From: a virus
Virus record (IMG/VR): IMGVR_UViG_3300039159_000196
Coordinates: 1-23,151 of that record
DNA: 23,151 bases
Reading direction: 5' to 3' (one strand)
Shown here: positions 13,081-23,151 of the stretch, one piece after another
Layout of the letters: each line of letters begins with the position of its first letter
How positions within the stretch are numbered: the first letter of the stretch is position 1
Notes under the pieces: generated by a model
Seen by the model: the letters and a program-made list of their open reading frames with translations, nothing else
Told to the model about the DNA's origin: nothing
Database searches by the model: none
Program-made: the position numbers and the translations under genes

Positions 13081-16000
13081 TCAGTTTAGAATTCGGGCAG
13101 TGGCCCCGAGAGCTTTAAGGGCATACTTGAATAGAATATGCGCACCGGTTTTAGCACCGATTTGCTTGGATGCTTCAGCCAACATCCAAGTAGTGAATTT
13201 CATATTGATACGTCCGACAGCTTTATTTATAATATAGATACCATACATAACATTTGCGTCTGAAATATAAGATTCAAAACAAGCTGTGATGCCAGCTTGA
13301 TCGATGTAGCCCGCCTCAAATGCTAGCAGAGCACCAGCTGGGTCACCGATGATAGAAGTCGTACCATACCCATTGACTTGATAAGTGTAATCACCATCAG
13401 TCCAAAGATTGTACACATAATCAACTCGATCATATGATTCAACCCATACTGCTAGTTGGCTAACATCTTTAAGCCATGGGTATATAGACTTGGTCTTTTT
13501 AAGGTTAGCCGAGCTAAGCTGTCCGTCAATATATAGCGGGTGATCATCTGTCGCGAAAGGAGACATAATTTTATCAGGTGAGTACAACTTAGAATCAGGT
13601 CTCATTTTGACATGTTCTAGCAACTTGACTTGATTAATCCGAAGACCTGATGCAGAGAGAACCATGTCACCAATAACTACGTCTTCGATTGCTCTCAAGC
13701 TTCCGTCAGCCATAGTGACTTTAGAACCAGCGATGAAACAGCCGCTTGAACTAGATGATGACACCGGTGGTGGAGGTGGTGGTAATGATGTGACAGACAC
13801 TACACGACCATTGAGTGAGGATTGAACTGTTGTAGAAACAGAAGTCCCAACTATTTGCGAAGTGCTATTCCAAAATGTCCCAGTATCGCCAACGGAGACT
13901 GCAACGTTTTTAGTTACTTTATTGATAATTGGAGGCGGCGCCGGAGAAAATTGTACTAGAGCACCAACCGGCTGCGGCTGCCACCCAAATGGGCGATGCA
14001 CGACGATGGTCTGTGACTTAGTGTCATTAGTTTGCGCAGGAAGATAATCGTAATCAATCCAGTTATCAAATGATGGTGTTAATCTCATCAACCCAGTCCA
14101 ACCAAATGACATGAATGGGTTAATGTTTGTAGTTCGCGATGAAAATGGCTGTTTAGCAAATTCAACTGTAGTGTAAGGCAATGTGTGAACAACATTACTT
14201 GTACTAAGTCTAGTATTTGTGGCCTCAGTCAAAGTAAGGTCAACAAGCTGACGCTCAATTGTAGGGATTAATCCACCAGCGGCATAAGAAGTTGTAAACT
14301 CTGGATTTTTAATATCAGAAATAGTGTCTGGGTTATCGAAAGTATCGACCAAATATCCAGACTTGAATCTGCTCAAACCAGTTGCGGCATCAATCACATC
14401 ATAATTGATAGTTGATTTTTCCGATTGTGTTAGAAGTGTAAAATCTTCAATGTTCATGACACGAGATTCAAGCTTACCGATCTCAGCCATCGTGTACCCA
14501 CGATTATTTGTGGCTTCCAAATAAATCTCATCAAGTTTTGAAGTGTACGCAGGAATGTACATCTTAGCTAGTATGATCGCATTCATAGGTATGACTGGCA
14601 ATTGAGGATTTTCCCCAGGTGCACCAGTTACCACACTAACCTTACTAGATGGGTCCATCACCACAGCAGCTATTTGCGGTACATAGAAAGAAATTGTACT
14701 AGAAAAACGCGATTCAGGTATGATTAGCTCAGATGTGCTGATGTAACCTGTGCTAGTATCATTTTCACGTGGGCGAAAGTCGATACAGGTAGCTAAGTCA
14801 TATGTAGTACCATCTGTTGGTGATTTGAATGATGGTATAGTTTCATAGCGACCATTAAGTGCAGTCGTGTAAGACTCAGGCCCAAAGAAATCACCGCTAC
14901 CACTATGTGTGAAATAATCATACACTACAGTCAATGTGCCAGTGACAGGCAGACCAACTAGAACTAACCTACCACGTAGATAAGCATAATCCCTTTGCCC
15001 ATTGTCAAGTACATATCGATCAGTAACATTGCCAAGAGTGGTTGACACTACAGAAATTAAACGATAAACATCTGCTTCCTTTAGCATAACAATAGGACCA
15101 ACCGCCAATCCTGTTTCAGTTTTTGGTGGAGCAAGAGCTTTGGTTTTACTAACTATATTTACTTTAGAGCAAGCAACGACTGCTTGAATTGGTAACCCTG
15201 CAGCCCAAGTGCCGCTAACAGTTATAGCTGTTCCAGGACCATTCAATGTCAGACCTGTACTTTGAACACCTGTTGGGCCAACGATAATGAAATTTCCAGC
15301 CTCTAACGGATCAATTGTAATGCCTGTCACGTTACCAATAGACAAAGTAGCACTATTAAGTGTCGTGGATGCTGATATAGACTTATAGACTTTATAAGAC
15401 ACATTAGTCGTACCGACTGTTTTCAATGCTGGAATGTTTAATGGGATTACTGATGAATTCCCAAGGTAATTACCAACAGTTGTGACCGTCGCAACAGTAG
15501 CTGAACCAGCAGAGCTTACGATTAAGTCATTAACGATCGGGATTGAGTTAGCACCACTTCTATAAACATACATCTCACCAAGTGTTTTGTCCCATTTCCA
15601 AACGATGGCTGATCTAGACAAACCAGTAACCGTGATAGTGCTATCTTTAACAAAGTTAACACCTGAGCTTGGTACACTAAATTTATGAAGAACTTTACCA
15701 ATGCTTGCTCCTATAGCAGACTTCATGTAACCTACACTTGTCAAGGAAGCCCCACCTGTCATCACAACATCAGTAATGAAAAACTTATAAATCCAATTCT
15801 GATTGACATCATTAGCGTCTTGGAAATCAACCGCGATGACTTTTGCAGTTCCAACTTCAGTACCACCAACATAAGAAAATAATTTGACCGTCTCTCTTGC
15901 ATTAGTGTCAGGTAATTTAAGAATGTCTGACACATATAGGAACTGACCAAACGATGGTGTAATCGTGATTGCTCGTGTTTTTACGTGATCAGCCGTTCTG

Positions 16001-17040
16001 GCTTTAGCAACAGCAAACGCTGACTTGGCCAATAATTCAGTTTCAAATCCTTTAATGTAAGCTTTACCTGGCGCTACATTTACAGCAAATAAAGATGAGT
16101 CTCCACCCTGAGCTTCATTAAACAGACCAGTATTGAATCTGGTTTTAAGGTGTTCTCGGATAGAAACATCAAGACCATTAGCTACATAATCACCAGACTC
16201 ATCGTATGTACGACGAGCTAGGGATTTTTCCAATTCGTTGTACTTGGCAAACCTAGCATGCTCTTCCAGAATACCGTCACGGAATCGCATCAGTTCAATA
16301 TAATCTTCAGTCACATTCGAACCAACATCATTTAATACTGGCAATGACGTCATAATCAGAGACAACTTGAAGCGGTCCGCACCTGGTGCCGAAAAGTTAT
16401 ATGAACCGTTAGCTGGGTCTAATAGTGTGGTGTCAAGGTCGGAGTTAATGACTTCTTCAATAATTTGGAGCAACACATGGCAGCTAGGAGTTGTTGTGTA
16501 CTTACCGATCACAACAGTTTGTTTTGCGACATTAGCAAAGATGCCATTTACATAGTAAACGCCGTCGGTTATAGATGCTACAGACCCTAAACCGGTAGAA
16601 TTGTTAGATGCAGCATAAAGCGTTGTTGAGCCAATAGTCAAAGGCTCGCCATCAAGAAATGCACCTGAGCCTGACATATAACCAACATACAATGTGTCTG
16701 GGTCAGTGTCAATTGCCTTTGTAGCCAATTTGATAACTGCAACCACACCTGAAGTAGACCCGGTAATTTTTTCACCAATTAGAGATGTTACATCAAGCAA
16801 CCCGGTTGGCTGCAACTTAACATACGGAACCGCCAAATCGGAGTAACTGTTGCCAGGCACAACCAACGATCCTTGACGAAATACATGATTGCCAAACGAC
16901 TTAACTTGGTTTTGCAGAATGCTTTGGATTTGTGTCAACTCTCGGGCTTGGACAGAATATCCAGGCTTGAATAAGATCTTATAGTAATCCTTATCGGCCG
17001 AGTAGTCATCAAAGTATGGGCTGTAATTAAATGTGGTCAT
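13081..17040 (-). CDS. DUF4815-type baseplate protein with C-terminal Hint domain
   Basis: A 1319-aa protein. The N-terminus (NYSPYFDDYSADKDYYKILF, then PGYSVQARELTQIQSILQNQ and FGNHVFRQGSLVVPG) is the hallmark of DUF4815 virion proteins of T4-like marine phages, which lie in the baseplate gene cluster. Long beta-rich middle. Near the end come six Pro (1087-1092), Val, six Ser (1094-1099) and Gly1100, then a Hint domain starting at Cys1101: CFIAGSKVTMADGS with GDMVLS, TDDHPLY with His1167, and a late strand VYNLWTDGDYTYQVNGYG. A roughly 90-residue helical tail follows. Hint domains cleave at the residue before the Cys, so self-release of residues 1-1100 is plausible. No terminal Asn splice block is evident, so protein splicing is unlikely. 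It sits between gp8-like and 872-aa genes. Confidence 0.9.
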   Translation of the reverse strand: MTTFNYSPYFDDYSADKDYYKILFKPGYSVQARELTQIQSILQNQVKSFGNHVFRQGSLVVPGNSYSDLAVPYVKLQPTGLLDVTSLIGEKITGSTSGVVAVIKLATKAIDTDPDTLYVGYMSGSGAFLDGEPLTIGSTTLYAASNNSTGLGSVASITDGVYYVNGIFANVAKQTVVIGKYTTTPSCHVLLQIIEEVINSDLDTTLLDPANGSYNFSAPGADRFKLSLIMTSLPVLNDVGSNVTEDYIELMRFRDGILEEHARFAKYNELEKSLARRTYDESGDYVANGLDVSIREHLKTRFNTGLFNEAQGGDSSLFAVNVAPGKAYIKGFETELLAKSAFAVAKARTADHVKTRAITITPSFGQFLYVSDILKLPDTNARETVKLFSYVGGTEVGTAKVIAVDFQDANDVNQNWIYKFFITDVVMTGGASLTSVGYMKSAIGASIGKVLHKFSVPSSGVNFVKDSTITVTGLSRSAIVWKWDKTLGEMYVYRSGANSIPIVNDLIVSSAGSATVATVTTVGNYLGNSSVIPLNIPALKTVGTTNVSYKVYKSISASTTLNSATLSIGNVTGITIDPLEAGNFIIVGPTGVQSTGLTLNGPGTAITVSGTWAAGLPIQAVVACSKVNIVSKTKALAPPKTETGLAVGPIVMLKEADVYRLISVVSTTLGNVTDRYVLDNGQRDYAYLRGRLVLVGLPVTGTLTVVYDYFTHSGSGDFFGPESYTTALNGRYETIPSFKSPTDGTTYDLATCIDFRPRENDTSTGYISTSELIIPESRFSSTISFYVPQIAAVVMDPSSKVSVVTGAPGENPQLPVIPMNAIILAKMYIPAYTSKLDEIYLEATNNRGYTMAEIGKLESRVMNIEDFTLLTQSEKSTINYDVIDAATGLSRFKSGYLVDTFDNPDTISDIKNPEFTTSYAAGGLIPTIERQLVDLTLTEATNTRLSTSNVVHTLPYTTVEFAKQPFSSRTTNINPFMSFGWTGLMRLTPSFDNWIDYDYLPAQTNDTKSQTIVVHRPFGWQPQPVGALVQFSPAPPPIINKVTKNVAVSVGDTGTFWNSTSQIVGTSVSTTVQSSLNGRVVSVTSLPPPPPPVSSSSSSGCFIAGSKVTMADGSLRAIEDVVIGDMVLSASGLRINQVKLLEHVKMRPDSKLYSPDKIMSPFATDDHPLYIDGQLSSANLKKTKSIYPWLKDVSQLAVWVESYDRVDYVYNLWTDGDYTYQVNGYGTTSIIGDPAGALLAFEAGYIDQAGITACFESYISDANVMYGIYIINKAVGRINMKFTTWMLAEASKQIGAKTGAHILFKYALKALGATARILN
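13224..13231 (-). promoter_or_regulatory. Possible late promoter inside the Hint-protein gene, TATAAATA
   Basis: Perfect T4 late box on the minus strand, within codons ATT ATA AAT AAA, 153 bases before the 872-aa ATG. It could drive that gene, which otherwise lacks a nearby late box; a chance match in coding sequence is possible. Confidence 0.5.
13351..13740 (-). other. Hint (hedgehog/intein-type) autoprocessing domain
   Basis: Codons for about residues 1101-1230 of the DUF4815-type protein. Catalytic Cys1101 is encoded by TGT at 13740-13738 and follows a Pro6/Val/Ser6/Gly linker. Block A (CFIAGSKVTM...IGDMVLS), block B (ATDDHPLY, His1167) and the late strand block (YNLWTDGDYTYQVNG) are present in order. 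Confidence 0.8.
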
Positions 17041-17049
17041 ATCGGCTTT

Positions 17050-19101
17050 TTAGAATTGTAGAACTGTTCGAAATGAAACTGTTTGGTCAGATGTTTGAGT
17101 GAACGCAGGCCTATTGTCAATCAACAGCATGCTCCCAGTAGTTTTATCTACATTTGGCGGCATCACTGTAAGTGCCGTCATTGTAGTTGGAGTACTTGGT
17201 ATATTTATCACTTCTCCTGGAGAAATTGAACCGGAATTCAACGGCAGAAGAAGCATTCTATTAACACCTGCATTGCTAAGCTCTGTAGACACTACAAGGA
17301 ATTTCTTAGAACCAATTTCTACCCTGGTGTCAGCTGCCCAAAGAGAATTGTTGAATACCCCTGAAACGGAATAACATGCGCACGCGATGTCAGAGTCAAT
17401 CGGCAATTTTGACTGTGAGCTATTGATAAGCAAGCTCTTTGCAGTTGTTGTCGATGTAGTTGCGGTTATGGTTGGATTACTTGGTGCTGTCGTATGACGT
17501 AGCACAGCTCCATTAGCGATAGTAGTTCCGTTTACAGTAAAGACTTCCATCGTTGTTGATGTGACACCATACACAATAATTTTATTTAGAGCAATATCAG
17601 TCAAAACTGAACCGACAGCAAATGTCGTAGTGTTGAACCCAGTACCAGTAAGATGAAATAGATTTTTGGATGTTAAGTTTGTGCTTGACATCAGTTCAAC
17701 ACCAGTTAAAGCAGTCAACACCATACCTGAAGTTGGTCCAACTACTACTGCCGTAGATTGATAAGTAGCTAAAGATGGAGCACTAAATATAGTACCAACT
17801 GGGAAATTGGTTATGTTTGAACCACCAGTAAATTGCACAGTCACTGCATAAGAGTTTGTGCTAATTGGGTCCGAAAGATTTGTTCCGTAAGTAAGACCAC
17901 GAGGCGATCGAATTATTCCATATTGGCGATAGTCATTATTGATCTTAACGCCGCCATAAGACTCTCGTGTAAGATTTCCATAAAACATTAATGCTGAAGC
18001 AAATAGCTCTTCCGATGCATTACGACCATGACCTAGCGGCGGACTAACATTAGCTACTGCTGAAGCTAGAACTCCAGTACTAGTTAGATTTGCAGTAATG
18101 ACAATGTTAGCATAATTGTAATTTCGCCCTGGGTTCGTAATCGTAATAAAAGCGATAGAGTTGTTGGTAGCATTCAGTGCCCATGACAGTTCAGCACCAG
18201 TGCCGTCACCTTCAATAGTGACAGAAATATTGCTCATTCCGCTTCCACTATTTCTAAGAATGATATTATCGATAGTGCCTGGTACAGCTAACATTTCAAC
18301 CACAGCCTGAGATGATGTGTAATCGCCTGTAGATAAATTGATAGCCAATTGTGCCCCCATACCAGCTGAAGCACCGGGGTTAACTGTAGCTACAGCGTGG
18401 GTATAACCAGACCCAGCCTGTGTGATTGTTGCCGATACTAATTGTCCACCAACGATAATTGGTTCAAGAATAGCGCCAGTACCATCGCCTGAAACCGTGA
18501 TGGTGGTTTCTCCCTGAGAATATCCAGATCCAGCACCTTCAATGTTCAACGAATCGATAGACCCATTTGAGAAAAATCGAGACCGTAAAGATGTGGTGAC
18601 AGGCATGTACTCACCAGTTAGGAACTTGTTGCGAAGACTTAGCGGTAGGTTATACATGAACTTCCAAACATACCCGTCAGCCATCGTCTGCGGCGCTAAG
18701 TCAGTTGTGTTAGGCTCATTAACCGATGGGATACCACCAGCATTCCAAAGACACTTGTATACGTTATTGGTGGCATTACTTAAGCAATATATCTGATGCA
18801 CAGTGTCAACTGTTTCGGCAGCAGACACGTCGTACATATTAAAAACTTTACCATATTCCCAGTTAACACGAGGCAACACAAGACACACATCAGCAGGACT
18901 AATAAGCTTAAGCAACACCATATTCGTGCGAGCTTTAGACTCATAGTCAACATTAGATTCAGGTGTTTCAACTATGTCCGGCCCTGCAATAAAATCAACT
19001 GTGCGTCCCATGTAATAGTAGTACCGGGCTTGCTTCGAAGCGATTTCAGAATAGATTGCCTCAATGATTGTTCGCTTAAGAGCCTGTTTAACGATAGCCA
19101 T
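17050..19101 (-). CDS. gp8: Baseplate wedge protein, gp8-like, enlarged
   Basis: A 683-aa protein, about twice T4 gp8 (334 aa). gp8-type features: an N-terminal helix followed by ARYYYYMGRTVDFIAGPDIV, SPADVCLVLPRVNWEYGKVF, a DTVHQIYCLSNATNNVYKCL strand pair, MADGYVWKFMYNLPL, and after the insertion GHGRNASEELFASALMFYGN...NNDYRQYGIIRSPRG. A beta-repeat insertion occupies residues about 185-350 with GSGY at 191-194 and 230-233 and variants at 286-289 and 325-328. The C-terminal 270 residues are beta-rich and not assigned. AAGGA lies 6 bases before the ATG, and a late box lies 20 bases upstream of it. Place in the cluster (before DUF4815 and neck genes) agrees with T4 gene 8. Confidence 0.85.
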   Translation of the reverse strand: MAIVKQALKRTIIEAIYSEIASKQARYYYYMGRTVDFIAGPDIVETPESNVDYESKARTNMVLLKLISPADVCLVLPRVNWEYGKVFNMYDVSAAETVDTVHQIYCLSNATNNVYKCLWNAGGIPSVNEPNTTDLAPQTMADGYVWKFMYNLPLSLRNKFLTGEYMPVTTSLRSRFFSNGSIDSLNIEGAGSGYSQGETTITVSGDGTGAILEPIIVGGQLVSATITQAGSGYTHAVATVNPGASAGMGAQLAINLSTGDYTSSQAVVEMLAVPGTIDNIILRNSGSGMSNISVTIEGDGTGAELSWALNATNNSIAFITITNPGRNYNYANIVITANLTSTGVLASAVANVSPPLGHGRNASEELFASALMFYGNLTRESYGGVKINNDYRQYGIIRSPRGLTYGTNLSDPISTNSYAVTVQFTGGSNITNFPVGTIFSAPSLATYQSTAVVVGPTSGMVLTALTGVELMSSTNLTSKNLFHLTGTGFNTTTFAVGSVLTDIALNKIIVYGVTSTTMEVFTVNGTTIANGAVLRHTTAPSNPTITATTSTTTAKSLLINSSQSKLPIDSDIACACYSVSGVFNNSLWAADTRVEIGSKKFLVVSTELSNAGVNRMLLLPLNSGSISPGEVINIPSTPTTMTALTVMPPNVDKTTGSMLLIDNRPAFTQTSDQTVSFRTVLQF
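17212..17219 (-). promoter_or_regulatory. Possible late promoter inside the gp8-like gene, GATAAATA
   Basis: NATAAATA box on the minus strand within coding sequence, 171 bases before the ATG of the DUF4815-Hint gene, which has no closer late box. It may be chance. Confidence 0.4.
18052..18549 (-). repeat. G-[ST]-G-Y beta-repeat insertion in the gp8-like protein
   Basis: Codons for about residues 185-350, splitting the gp8 core. Units read GAGSGYSQGETTITVSGDGT, then QAGSGYTHAVATV, and two degenerate copies. Confidence 0.65.
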
Positions 19102-19136: not shown

Positions 19137-20477
19137 TTAATCTGAAGCTACAACCTTAATTGGGAATGGCTTGCGGATTTTTGATGACTGACGTTCAGTG
19201 TGAGTGAACAGTTTTTGCCGATACTCAGGAAGGTCTTTATTATATATCTTATATGGAGCATACCCAGTGAGAGATTCTATAGCGATAGCGAATAGAGGTA
19301 TAGCATCAGAGTAAGCGTTATCACACGAGGTATTGAAAAATTCATCTTGCAAAAACATACAAGAACCACCACATAAGGCTAATACAGGGCATTTTTGACA
19401 TTGCGATCTTTCAGTCCAATGTGTAGCTGTGTTTAATACAATATTGGATGTATCTGATAGATGACCAATCTTATGTGAAGTGCCTAAAGCCGATACCTCG
19501 TTAGACGATGTATTTTGGCAGGTGATAACATTACCTGTTAAATCGATAGCCATTATATCTTCTTTATCCATACCACATTTTTGGCCACGAGAACCCATAT
19601 ACTTTTTAGAAAGTAAGGAATCCCTAAAACCATCTATCTGTGACTTCTGCCCAGGTATTCGAATTAGCTTAGGCATATTTTCTCTAATCTCTAGCCAATT
19701 GTTTCTACGACGATCAATATCTTCTTCACTTGAAAGAAGTGATAGAGGAACTGAAGCATCATTATATGTATCAACCCAAACCATCTCATAATGAGAGATG
19801 TTAATCGTCGGGAATTTTTCTGCAAACCAATCGATGATGGCCATCCTAGATTGGTTATCTTTGTTTAACATCGATGAAACGCCAACGGGTCTACCTGCTT
19901 TCTGGGTTTCAGTAAATAACCTTAGGATCTGATCCCAATTATCTTCAAGCAGTTCATCACCACGAACATACTGTCCAGGCCCATCATGAGAAATTGAAAA
20001 CCCAATTTTGTTATCTAAGATCCAATCTACTTTCTCAGCATTCAATAAGCTACCGTTAGTTATAATCGAAAAAGTAACTTCACTTCCAAGCACGGCTTTC
20101 AGTGCTTCATGAAGCGGCTTTAAAGTTTTCCAATAGACAAATGGTTCACCCCCCCAATATTCAAGTCTGTTGACCATACTAAGATCTAGGTTTTTTAATT
20201 TCTCAATAAATGCTTCTATATCATTAGCAGAAGTCGATTCCGGTGCTTCAACAAACCGCTGTGAACAATACTCGCATGAATAGTTGCATGATAGTCCTAA
20301 CTGAACTTTCAAGACTTTTGGCGTTGATGATTTTTTCTTAAACGATACTGGATCAAGAACTACATCATCAGGGTATAGCAATGGTTCGTCACTTAACTCG
20401 GAGTTTAGATTGTCAAAATAAAAGTTTCTCTTAGTCCCATCTTCAAGACTTTCGCATTCAATAATAAAATGTGCCAT
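19137..20477 (-). CDS. Radical SAM/SPASM protein-modifying enzyme 2
   Basis: A 446-aa radical SAM protein. Residues C64, C68 and C71 form the CxxxCxxC motif that binds the SAM-cleaving 4Fe-4S cluster; GGEP at 109-112 is the SAM amino-group motif. The C-terminal SPASM domain is complete: C301-x13-G315-x4-C320, then C360-x2-C363-x5-C369-x3-C373 and C385, ligands for auxiliary clusters. SPASM enzymes modify peptides and proteins (thioether, C-C or ether crosslinks; formylglycine in anSME). A ~60-residue N-terminal extension precedes the barrel and is absent from its partner. The ATG lies 20 bases inside the end of radical SAM 1, so the two are translationally coupled. The substrate is not known; the Cys-rich 138-aa protein is the obvious neighbour candidate. 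Confidence 0.93.
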   Translation of the reverse strand: MAHFIIECESLEDGTKRNFYFDNLNSELSDEPLLYPDDVVLDPVSFKKKSSTPKVLKVQLGLSCNYSCEYCSQRFVEAPESTSANDIEAFIEKLKNLDLSMVNRLEYWGGEPFVYWKTLKPLHEALKAVLGSEVTFSIITNGSLLNAEKVDWILDNKIGFSISHDGPGQYVRGDELLEDNWDQILRLFTETQKAGRPVGVSSMLNKDNQSRMAIIDWFAEKFPTINISHYEMVWVDTYNDASVPLSLLSSEEDIDRRRNNWLEIRENMPKLIRIPGQKSQIDGFRDSLLSKKYMGSRGQKCGMDKEDIMAIDLTGNVITCQNTSSNEVSALGTSHKIGHLSDTSNIVLNTATHWTERSQCQKCPVLALCGGSCMFLQDEFFNTSCDNAYSDAIPLFAIAIESLTGYAPYKIYNKDLPEYRQKLFTHTERQSSKIRKPFPIKVVASD

Positions 20478-21480
20478 TTAAAAATCCATTTTGAGTTAGT
20501 TGCTCGTTAAAATCTTGAAGATCAAGATATTCATATACATTTGCTTTAATCTTTTCCAGCTTACAATCGATTGTATGTGTCTGACTTAGATGACAGTTAC
20601 CTTGACATAAACTTCGAAGTTTACAGGATTTACATTCGGTGCTATCAACAAATTTTCGTGAATTTGTATCAGCTAAGAATTCATTTGGTTTTGCTAACTT
20701 TTGGAACGTAATTACATTCTCTACCTTATTAACATCAGTACAATTATGGTGACACGTATATCTATTACCATCCAATGTGACATTTAGTTTGTCAGCCCCA
20801 TGACACAACCCATCGGTTCTATAATCAGTAATAGCGAGACTCTTTTTCCATTTTATATAATGAGGTATGAAAAAGTTTATAGAACTAGGTTCACCATTCA
20901 AAGCATCCTTTGCAACGTTCAATAGATTTAAGTGGAGACTTGGTAAATGTTCTTTGGTAAACCAAAATTCCTTTGGAGTTTCTTTTGTTGACCTGACCCA
21001 GTGACCATACAAATGGACATGCTTTTTCATTAGATGCTGAATGTCATTATTCCACTTGAAAGTATCATAGATGTTAAATCGTTGTCCATGCAATACATAA
21101 GACACCCCAAAGTCATCAACATTTTTTAGTTTGTCAAATTTGATTGAAGATAGATCATCATGATAACTTAATCGTAAAGATGCTCTCCACTTATTTACAT
21201 CACTAACACATTCATCGGTAATCAAAGACCCATTAGTCATGATTTTAATTAATGGAGATTTAACCCCTGCAGCATCAAACCTATTCTGAATAGCTTGGAT
21301 GTCTTTCCAATATAAAAGCGGTTCACCACCCCAATAAGATATACCACCTGAAGCATACTGAGAGAATGTCTCAACGAATTTGTCATAATCAGGGGTCTTA
21401 ACTCTATTTGGTGATTCTTTACCTTGTAGACAGTATGCACAATTGAAATTGCATGCTGACCCTAAAAAGATATTCAGCAT
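20458..21480 (-). CDS. Radical SAM/SPASM protein-modifying enzyme 1
   Basis: A 340-aa radical SAM protein starting directly with the barrel: C10, C14 and C17 form CxxxCxxC (CNFNCAYC) and GGEP lies at 51-54 in YWGGEPLLYW. The SPASM domain is complete: C226-x11-G238-x4-C243, an extra C247, then C283-x2-C286-x5-C292-x3-C296 and C306. The motif spacing closely follows the SPASM consensus, so it should carry auxiliary 4Fe-4S clusters. Its middle is shorter than in enzyme 2. The ATG overlaps the stop of the 307-aa gene by one base (TAATG). It is strongly AT-rich: the 60 bases from 21121 hold 14 G+C, against 31 of 60 in a terminase stretch from 7681, suggesting an acquired accessory gene. Confidence 0.93.
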   Translation of the reverse strand: MLNIFLGSACNFNCAYCLQGKESPNRVKTPDYDKFVETFSQYASGGISYWGGEPLLYWKDIQAIQNRFDAAGVKSPLIKIMTNGSLITDECVSDVNKWRASLRLSYHDDLSSIKFDKLKNVDDFGVSYVLHGQRFNIYDTFKWNNDIQHLMKKHVHLYGHWVRSTKETPKEFWFTKEHLPSLHLNLLNVAKDALNGEPSSINFFIPHYIKWKKSLAITDYRTDGLCHGADKLNVTLDGNRYTCHHNCTDVNKVENVITFQKLAKPNEFLADTNSRKFVDSTECKSCKLRSLCQGNCHLSQTHTIDCKLEKIKANVYEYLDLQDFNEQLTQNGFLNGTFYY

Positions 21481-22403
21481 TAGTTTATTACCGTCATAGT
21501 GTGTTCAGCAACCCCAGTGAAATTTCTAAAACCGACCTTGACCCTAATCTCGTCACCTGCAAGTAGACCTAATGCCATGACTGGAATTTTAATTTGTCCA
21601 GCTTGAACTCTAGTTTTGGGTAAATAACCTGCAGTGGATTCCAAATAAACATCTGCAGTTTCTTCATCAAGCAATTCACCATCACTATTGATAAGTTCTA
21701 AGTCTAAGTATGTTAATTGATCTTTTAGAATAACTACAGGTCCAGTTAACCGTAACGAAGGGAAAAATCTACCGTTATATCTATTCTGCGTAACGGCAAC
21801 AAAATCTGCTTCGGAAAACGCTACATTGGATGACATCCCATGTCTTTGGTCATAACAAACTGAGACAGAACAATCTTTTACTTTTCTATTAGCAAAAGGC
21901 ACTATGAGCTGGGCGACACATGAGGTATTACCTTTTAGAAGATACCGCATAGACTTAGCACGAGAAATGAAAGAATCCGTGAATGCACTTATTGGGCTAT
22001 TTGCTAATCGACCACCCTCAAATAAAAAGAACCAATTAGAATAATCAGCCCATTCACCTTTTCCTAAGGGTCTAACTGGGTCATCTGTTTTGAGTAAAGA
22101 TCTAGCTTGAATTCTATACAAAAGTTCAGGTGAATTTGAACCGATGATTTCGCCACCGATAAGAGTGCCAAGATCAGGATAGTTAATCTCACGGTTTGCC
22201 CATTGAGCTTCGGATATGAAGACCCACCCACACTCTGGTTCTGGTTCTATTAGAAGACTCGAGTCTGAAGATAAACTTCTATTGTTTATTTTGACCGGTT
22301 TAAGTTCATAGACCATAATTTCATTTTCTAAGATGATTATATCTAAGAAATGATCTAATGCACTACCGGCATACTTGTGGCGTGATACTTTTAATGTTGT
22401 CAT
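21480..22403 (-). CDS. Unknown protein in the radical SAM operon, Ig-like C-terminus
   Basis: A 307-aa protein I do not recognise. Residues 1-60 include a helix and short strands; a middle region with GWVFISEAQWANREINYPDL and EWADYSNWFFLFEGGRLAN is aromatic-rich; the last ~85 residues (TYLDLELINSDGELLDEETA, VYLESTAGYLPKTRVQAGQI, DEIRVKVGFRNFTGVAEH) read like an Ig-like or invasin-type beta sandwich, common in virion proteins. It has no signal peptide or membrane segment. It has five Cys only (58, 163, 177, 183 area) and no Cys repeats. It sits between the Cys-rich protein and the two radical SAM genes and overlaps the first by TAATG, so it may be a virion partner, a modification substrate or an accessory of the pathway. 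Confidence 0.75.
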   Translation of the reverse strand: MTTLKVSRHKYAGSALDHFLDIIILENEIMVYELKPVKINNRSLSSDSSLLIEPEPECGWVFISEAQWANREINYPDLGTLIGGEIIGSNSPELLYRIQARSLLKTDDPVRPLGKGEWADYSNWFFLFEGGRLANSPISAFTDSFISRAKSMRYLLKGNTSCVAQLIVPFANRKVKDCSVSVCYDQRHGMSSNVAFSEADFVAVTQNRYNGRFFPSLRLTGPVVILKDQLTYLDLELINSDGELLDEETADVYLESTAGYLPKTRVQAGQIKIPVMALGLLAGDEIRVKVGFRNFTGVAEHTMTVIN

Positions 22404-22407
22404 AATT

Positions 22408-22415
22408 TATTTATC
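22408..22415 (-). promoter_or_regulatory. Second copy of late box, GATAAATA
   Basis: NATAAATA box on the minus strand only 4 bases before the 307-aa ATG, part of a 36-base tandem duplication. Too close to the ATG to leave a ribosome site, so it is probably an unused duplicate; its GGAT more likely serves as a weak Shine-Dalgarno for the 307-aa gene. Confidence 0.35.
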
Positions 22416-22443
22416 CATCGTTACAATAGCAATTGCTATAATT

Positions 22444-22451
22444 TATTTATG
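22444..22451 (-). promoter_or_regulatory. T4-type late promoter, CATAAATA
   Basis: NATAAATA box on the minus strand that contains the TAA stop of the 138-aa gene. It lies 40 bases before the 307-aa ATG and is the likely late start for the 307-aa and two radical SAM genes. Confidence 0.6.
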
Positions 22452-22863
22452 AATCGCCACAAATGCAATTGCACTGGCTATAATTGCAATTGCATACGAA
22501 GCAATTGCAATTGCAGTTACAGTTTGCTTGTAGATAAGTCCCATGAGAATATGTACCAACGTTACAATTTATAGCATACCTAAGTGTGCAATTAGCATAG
22601 CTATATTGCATGTTGTCATCATTTGCTTGTACCGCAGTCTGACTTGGGGTGCAGTTTGTAGTCGTCCCTACAGCTGTAGCATTAATCCAGTTAGTGCTAG
22701 AAAAAGCAGTGAAGTATGCATACCCTCGTATTGACTGCAGATCACTATAAGTGAACCTAGTAGCTCCACGAATCCAAAGGAACTCTCTATAAGTAGCTGC
22801 TGCAGCTCCAATTTCGACGTTGACTTGGTCTATCCCAATAGAACCACTTGCGGGTAAAGTCAT
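22447..22863 (-). CDS. Cys/Asn-repeat protein with phage tail-fibre-type N-terminus
   Basis: A 138-aa protein with two parts. The N-terminus (MTLPASGSIGIDQVNVEIGA, with RGYAYF near 46-51) matches the short motif found at the start of many phage tail-tip and fibre proteins (TLPASGxIxxxQVNxE). The rest is Cys/Asn-rich: Cys at 71, 92, 100, 115, 117, 119, 121, 124, 126, 131, 133 and 135, nine of them preceded by Asn, ending in consecutive Asn-Cys pairs at 114-121. C71-T-P-S-Q resembles a C-x-P-x sulfatase-type motif. AGGA lies 8 bases before the ATG, which overlaps the stop of a 15-codon ORF. Possible roles: substrate for the radical SAM enzymes just downstream, a metal-binding CxC tip, or a disulfide-rich adhesin. 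The function is not established. Confidence 0.85.
   Translation of the reverse strand: MTLPASGSIGIDQVNVEIGAAAATYREFLWIRGATRFTYSDLQSIRGYAYFTAFSSTNWINATAVGTTTNCTPSQTAVQANDDNMQYSYANCTLRYAINCNVGTYSHGTYLQANCNCNCNCFVCNCNYSQCNCICGDS
22465..22515 (-). repeat. AATTGC hexanucleotide repeats encoding Asn-Cys
   Basis: Repeated AATTGC units (two runs of two, plus singles) encode the Asn-Cys tail of the 138-aa protein. The unit is nearly self-complementary (GCAATTGC is a palindrome), so replication slippage could change Asn-Cys number without breaking the frame. Confidence 0.7.
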
Positions 22864-22907
22864 TTATGAATTCCTGTTATGTGATAGGACCAGTCTGTGT
22901 GTGCCAT
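22860..22907 (-). CDS. 15-codon micro-ORF before the Cys-rich gene
   Basis: Encodes MAHTDWSYHITGIHK. It has the best ribosome site of this region (GAGGAAA, 6 bases before the ATG) and its TGA overlaps the ATG of the 138-aa gene (ATGA). It could be a leader that couples translation of the Cys-rich protein, a free small peptide, or chance. No homology is claimed. Confidence 0.35.
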   Translation of the reverse strand: MAHTDWSYHITGIHK

Positions 22908-22927
22908 ATGTTTCCTCGTGCTATGAT

Positions 22928-23148
22928 TTATTTAATAGCATAGTTTCCAGATAATGCAACTGAGTTGCCAAAATAATCATCTTTACTTGTACCGTATGCA
23001 TTAGGGTTAAATAATGTTTTTAATCCAACTTTTGTTGAAGTATTATATGCCCCACCAGAATAGTATTCACTTAATGAAATTGGAGCAGCGCCCCAAATTC
23101 AGACTGAATTTGGCCCAGTGAAATTGCCCCAGAAGCCTGTAATGTCAT
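22928..23148 (-). pseudogene. Short tail-fibre-type protein with a one-base frameshift
   Basis: Begins MTLQASGAISLGQIQSEFG, a textbook start for phage tail-tip/fibre proteins and a relative of the neighbouring 138-aa N-terminus. The reading frame then breaks at a run of four G (23091-23094 on the plus strand). Adding one G restores GGAAPISLSEYYSGGAYN and an open frame to TAA at 22930-22928, ending NSVALSGNYAIK, for a 73-aa product. As given, translation would stop after 26 codons. A sequencing or assembly error in the G run, or a genuine inactivation, are both possible; the intact-looking downstream codons favour error or a very recent loss. Confidence 0.65.
22929..22936 (-). promoter_or_regulatory. 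Weak late-promoter-like box, ATTAAATA
   Basis: One mismatch to the ATAAATA core, fused to the stop codon of the preceding ORF (ATT AAA TAA) as at two other late boxes here, and 22 bases before the micro-ORF ATG. It is the only candidate promoter for the Cys-rich gene inside the window. Confidence 0.35.
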
Positions 23149-23151
23149 TAC

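Follow-up and report, generated by a model that had tools for sequence, protein, structure and literature searches.

A tailed-phage gene module that may chemically mature an Asn-Cys-rich fibre tail with radical SAM/SPASM enzymes

The 23,151-nucleotide stretch of viral DNA analysed here (the window; IMG/VR record IMGVR_UViG_3300039159_000196) carries a four-gene module in which a 138-aa fibre-type protein with an Asn-Cys-rich (NC) tail is accompanied by two radical SAM/SPASM enzymes, rSAM-A and rSAM-B, and a 307-aa protein, p307. We put at roughly three in four the probability that this module is a phage-encoded, RiPP-like system for maturation of the NC tail of the fibre, with a thioether as the likeliest bond. 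Since many tailed phages pair an NC-rich fibre-type protein with a neighbouring radical SAM enzyme of a kind that modifies peptides, the phage, judged from its genes, probably rewires its own fibre chemically, as bacteria do when making crosslinked peptides. The known targets of radical SAM crosslinking are bacterial peptides and a few enzymes, and no report of radical SAM modification in a phage or virion was found in the literature searched, which mostly excluded subscription journals and preprints. If the reading is correct, it would reveal a new route to tough or receptor-specific fibre tips, explain PHROG 1802, a phage enzyme family without assigned function, and provide peptide chemists with hundreds of natural pairs of enzyme and substrate; it would also mean that host recognition by viruses can depend on chemistry invisible to sequence alone. 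The cultured phages JWF and 2-1 carry the module, which makes the reading directly testable.

Table 1. Features of the module and its immediate surroundings, in window coordinates
Feature	Position	Strand	Basis
138-aa NC-rich fibre-type protein, probable substrate	22447-22863	minus	12 Cys, 9 Asn-Cys
Residues 1-20 of the 138-aa protein, virion/fibre-type N-terminus presumed to serve for attachment	22804-22863	minus	by-eye similarity
NC tail at the C-terminus (residues 114-138, NCNCNCNCFVCNCNYSQCNCICGDS), the region presumed to be modified	22450-22524	minus	read from sequence
p307, 307-aa conserved module protein	21480-22403	minus	relatives in other loci, AF2 model, Foldseek
rSAM-B, 340-aa radical SAM/SPASM enzyme	20458-21480	minus	PF04055, TIGR04085, arrangement repeated in other loci
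rSAM-A, 446-aa radical SAM/SPASM enzyme	19137-20477	minus	PHROG 1802, SPASM Cys, fold
Baseplate wedge (T4 gp8-like) protein, context only	17050-19101	minus	PHROG 438 baseplate wedge subunit, E 9e-79

A sequence-only reading that preceded this analysis had described four minus-strand genes joined by a TAATG and a 20-base overlap; the four reading frames were recovered at the same positions and lengths (138, 307, 340 and 446 aa), and both junctions were found, the overlap at 20458-20477. The neighbours of the module are virion genes: the baseplate wedge gene comes first on the downstream side and is followed by the gene for a DUF4815 protein, while genes for a tail sheath stabiliser, for head closure and for terminase lie farther along the window. 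The module had also been labelled late-expressed, which the promoter search did not bear out: no exact T4-type late promoter (TATAAATA) occurs inside it and one-mismatch matches are at chance level, leaving its position beside the baseplate genes as the sole pointer to late expression. The DUF4815 tail protein (1319 aa; 13081-17040, minus strand) ends in a Hint (intein-like) domain after a Pro/Ser-rich stretch, and a control scan with this protein as query returned no relatives. At the end of the window (22880-23151, minus strand) a second fibre-type N-terminus, MTLQASGAISLGQIQSEFGA, begins and carries on in another frame as APISLSEYYSGGAYNTS, a break suggestive of an indel or a mistake in assembly.

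The 138-aa protein contains 16 Asn and the 12 Cys and nine Asn-Cys dipeptides counted earlier, the last of these far above the 1.4 expected; no shuffle out of 20,000 had as many. Its N-terminus (MTLPASGSI..VNVEIG) is, by eye, common to NC-rich proteins found beside enzyme relatives elsewhere, with similar beginnings in the partners of loci L018, L024 (MTLPASGSISFSTINVEIG), L048, L062 and L073, and the window's partner and the freshwater partners share the fibre-type pattern MTLPASGSI...EIG, again by eye. A tblastn search with the 138-aa protein itself gave no matches, probably because low-complexity filtering masks the NC tail; a counterpart of that tail is present near the enzyme relatives with full flanks.

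The repeat was characterised in 89 non-redundant partner ORFs holding 726 clustered Cys. Asn occupies position -1 in 76% of these Cys, 3.0 times its share, and position -3 in 48% (1.9 times), while Ala, Gln and Asp replace it in places, so that the acceptor of a modification may not be Asn. Within the repeats both AAT and AAC encode Asn and both TGT and TGC encode Cys; this mixture of synonymous codons indicates selection on the protein, and a DNA-level repeat, considered since GCAATT repeats are self-complementary, was rejected on this ground.

The partner proteins range from 81 to 616 aa, are fibre-like, lie among baseplate and tail genes and contain up to about twenty Cys; most of them are of fibre type. 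It is likely that the modified protein sits in the particle. That the module should instead make a small secreted RiPP, a toxin or signal cleaved from the 138-aa protein and acting outside the particle, seems highly improbable given the size, character and genomic position of the partners, and no transporter or protease was found in the window or the inspected phage modules. The one arrangement that speaks for export occurs in Sulfuritalea (L226:2416-8176), where a distant rSAM-A relative has genes for a C39-peptidase ABC transporter and an HlyD protein as neighbours, and which by its gene content is like a bacterial peptide-export cluster. No separate or cleaved leader is evident in the module; under fibre maturation, the fibre part would stand in its place.

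The association between enzyme and NC protein was assessed from both sides. Relatives of rSAM-A were collected from viral contigs with the protein as query (11 loci) and with an alignment of its relatives (the best 80 of 377 relatives), as well as from bacterial genomes (32 loci); removal of near-copies of the enzyme left 62 loci, 27 of which had at least 4.5 kb upstream and at least 2 kb downstream. A same-strand NC-rich ORF lay within 5 kb of the enzyme in all 27 fully flanked loci and on the opposite strand in none, and the nine loci lacking such an ORF were all broken by contig ends. One of the 27 (L046) may be a weak positive: an earlier screen accepted it solely for a 2084-aa tail protein with a pair of NC dipeptides, and nothing within about 7 kb is convincing as an NC protein, so that the strict count may be 26 of 27. 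All ORFs were counted, as in several prophages a frame-shifted ORF (LQLQLQ...) outlasts the true NC ORF. When a CxCxC motif was required near the C-terminus, a matching protein was found in only 25 of 92 loci; this low figure is due to the filter, as the NC protein of the freshwater group is encoded downstream of the enzyme and has a further domain behind the repeat.

The reverse scan, independent of the enzyme, looked for DNA coding NCNCNC followed by TAA and returned 107 stretches. ORFs truly ending in NCNCNC were sorted into groups on their final 30 residues: 40 groups lay beside an rSAM-A relative and four did not, the latter belonging to a few unrelated protein families, with 15 further groups at contig edges. 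In 14 larger records scanned whole, the NCNC-coding pattern clustered at the module and occurred elsewhere at about the frequency of a backward-read control. The sequence-only reading had proposed such a neighbourhood search, naming enzyme relatives away from Cys-repeat proteins as the outcome that would speak against it; the opposite was found, with linkage in both directions across very different phages and prophages. Adjacency, kept from genome to genome, of a ribosomal substrate gene and the gene for the enzyme that modifies it is a hallmark of RiPP systems, and both the forward and the reverse counts agree with it. From this sequence evidence the enzymes very probably modify the NC tail in some way, and the earlier interpretation that the phage modifies a fibre or tail-tip protein is supported.

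The more distant radical SAM neighbours in Campylobacter phage CP220 and Burkholderia phage FLC6 lack an NC protein and fall outside this group. A locus cut by the contig end (L014:7160-7981) speaks against a general pairing, since its radical SAM gene comes after a gene for a 273-aa protein that is very rich in Gly and has no Cys; this protein may represent a different type of partner.

The NC partner was retained over a tree of 81 divergent enzymes while its position and shape varied, as an enzyme-substrate pair should behave. Three architectures were seen: an upstream partner with a free NC C-terminus; an upstream partner in which a Hint domain follows the tail immediately (JWF, phage 2-1, Burkholderia paludis MSh1 and Magnetospirillum); and a downstream partner with a further C-terminal domain containing a hydrophobic helix. 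The window's own rSAM-A forms a long branch, which makes its exact placement unsure. Within the phage collection, close enzyme relatives were found only in the Achromobacter phages JWF and 2-1, the former a named member of PHROG 1802 and the latter annotated with that family. JWF, a temperate siphovirus grown on A. xylosoxidans CCUG 48386 (PMC3899368), has the NC region ..KPRQNCNCDCNCNCS in its tail protein PJWF_00028, and its radical SAM enzyme is PJWF_00030. In L015, L205, L215 and L231 the Hint domain begins right after the NC tail (NCNCDCNCNCS followed at once by CFPAGT), so self-cleavage could free the modified NC end.

Both enzymes contain CX3CX2C, GGEP, CX9-15GX4C and CX2CX5CX3C motifs plus a last Cys, that is, the full seven-Cys SPASM set, and exceed the cut-offs of the domain models, with 48.6 and 29.7 bits for PF04055 (Pfam; cut-off 29.5) and 35.7 and 35.2 bits for the SPASM model TIGR04085 (cut-off 27); the complete motifs noted by the sequence-only reading thus hold. 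The SPASM Cys are invariant in 20 relatives of rSAM-A and in five of rSAM-B. The rSAM-A protein matches PHROG 1802 over residues 47-405 (E 2e-57, 196 bits), a family named 'radical SAM domain-containing protein' that is listed as 'other', without function, and has no recorded link to NC-tail proteins. The two-enzyme arrangement recurs in L076 (a complete four-gene set), L222, L229 and L231, and most phage modules have rSAM-A alone.

Neither enzyme scored above the cut-off of any of the curated maturase families listed. The best of these for both was PapB (NF047865; 74.5 and 48.1 bits, cut-off 340); QhpD (TIGR03906; 62.7 and 40.1 bits, cut-off 453) and the anaerobic sulfatase maturase (TIGR03942; 44.3 and 36.8 bits, cut-off 349) scored lower. 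PapB/freyrasin-type maturases resemble the module's enzymes as SPASM proteins with a Cys-rich substrate nearby, but their substrates have CX3D spacing compared with the alternating XC seen here. The AlphaFold2 model of rSAM-A (pLDDT 80, pTM 0.81) had as its nearest PDB structures in Foldseek anSMEcpe, at the top, and CteB, SuiB, ChlB, SkfB and TigE, a predicted fold that matches most closely SPASM enzymes acting on peptides or proteins.

These comparisons bear on the kind of bond. The enzymes could act on the NC tail with other chemistry, without thioethers: they might form C-C or cyclophane links, epimerise or desaturate residues, or turn Cys into formylglycine in the manner of anSME, and the top structural match, a Cys-type anaerobic sulfatase-maturating enzyme, would fit the last of these; cyclophane-type and sulfatase-maturase models also score in the same range as PapB. 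We consider this unlikely, as the NC tails lack the sulfatase C/S-x-P/A-x-R motif, the dense spacing of Cys, one in every two residues, suggests that sulfur is what reacts, and the thioether maker PapB is the best model for both enzymes. A thioether is somewhat favoured as the bond, and the enzymes may work like thioether-forming maturases, although their scores are far below the PapB cut-off.

A close chemical precedent is the ranthipeptide NxxcA, in which a thioether connects Cys23 with Asn20 (PMC8326336). As in NxxcA/NxxcB, the module combines a radical SAM enzyme with Cys three residues after Asn, and because (NC)n holds overlapping N-x-x-C units, a Cys-Asn thioether of this known type is favoured; NxxcA is, however, a short bacterial peptide with one bridge, whereas the candidate substrates here are fibre-type proteins with many Cys and often accompanying hydroxylase genes. 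QhpD makes Cys-Asp/Glu thioethers in a protein (PMC8326336), and SPASM enzymes are thus able to form thioethers inside proteins and not merely in peptide natural products; its target is an enzyme subunit, of quinohemoprotein amine dehydrogenase, rather than a virion-type protein. In thuricin CD two radical SAM enzymes act together (PMC12093266). The paired genes TrnC and TrnD, both required for thioether crosslinking, resemble the window's pair, but they serve a bacterial two-peptide sactibiotic and most phage modules make do with one enzyme.

The proposed maturation would proceed as follows. The 138-aa protein would be a fibre or tail-tip component attached to the particle by its N-terminus, with its C-terminal NC tail as the substrate. 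The rSAM-A enzyme, helped by rSAM-B, would reduce SAM to give a 5'-deoxyadenosyl radical, which would take a hydrogen from a carbon of a tail Asn (or Ala/Asp), and that carbon would be joined to a nearby Cys sulfur, the likeliest link being N-x-x-C, to build a thioether ladder. The outcome would be either a rigid tip able to withstand proteases and redox change, or fibre chains locked to one another covalently.

In this scheme p307 would be a module-specific partner, possibly a chaperone, a recognition protein or a co-structural protein. Its relatives occur in 108 of the loci fetched (67 non-redundant), and by its recurrence it is a conserved third gene of the module. The AF2 model (pLDDT 76.7) is beta-rich with a C-terminal Ig-like domain, and in Foldseek it matched Ig/MG-like domains as well as uncharacterised proteins from phages. 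JWF gp29, checked as a candidate relative of p307, proved not to be one. In families with a free NC C-terminus, p307 is linked nearly as constantly as the enzyme, which could be taken to suggest that the enzymes modify another protein, such as p307, or load or protect an NC tail serving as a metallothionein-like metal or iron-sulfur element, CxCxC repeats being good metal ligands. We regard this as improbable: p307 is missing from whole module groups that retain the NC protein and the enzyme, the strong preference for Asn at -1 is unexpected for a simple metal site, and SPASM enzymes are otherwise known for chemistry on peptides, proteins or cofactor precursors.

Further genes accompany the modules in part. 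Putative 2-oxoglutarate (2OG-Fe) oxygenase genes occur in 34 of the 81 modules, and in 11 of those 34 they are of the Asp/Asn beta-hydroxylase type (PF05118, E 1.7e-9 for the one gene tested; examples at L031:11975-12772, L042:11475-12263 and L062:6466-7248). Asn hydroxylation beside an Asn-Cys repeat would be in keeping with a modified tail, but oxygenases of this kind are frequent in other phage settings as well, and the hydroxylase genes are accordingly counted as supporting evidence only. In L018 a JmjC gene adjoins the NC protein, and a B12-binding radical SAM gene is found in three of the 81 modules, L031 and L073 among the carriers. A small gene of 61-74 aa directly precedes rSAM-A in the prophage modules L219 (6624-6833), L228 (6594-6818) and L210 (6819-7004); a Pfam scan of the L219 gene gave no match, and a separate recognition protein is possible. 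More broadly, and with slightly less than even confidence, these modules might represent a tailed-phage class of virion RiPPs distributed over many phages and prophages, in which dedicated radical SAM and 2-oxoglutarate enzymes make the NC tail into a many-fold thioether polymer, in some cases also hydroxylated on Asn, with Hint domains sometimes releasing the tail.

Related domains and repeats also occur in other settings. In Synechococcus phage SynMITS9220M01 (L204:4669-6519) the KIIC-type domain that freshwater NC proteins have at their C-terminus follows a long poly-Pro/poly-Arg stretch, with neither an NC repeat nor a nearby radical SAM gene. A prophage-like locus of Parasutterella muris (L229:3680-8227) encodes three tandem Cys-rich proteins with CSYCSYCTYCSQC repeats in place of NC, together with a p307 relative and two radical SAM genes.
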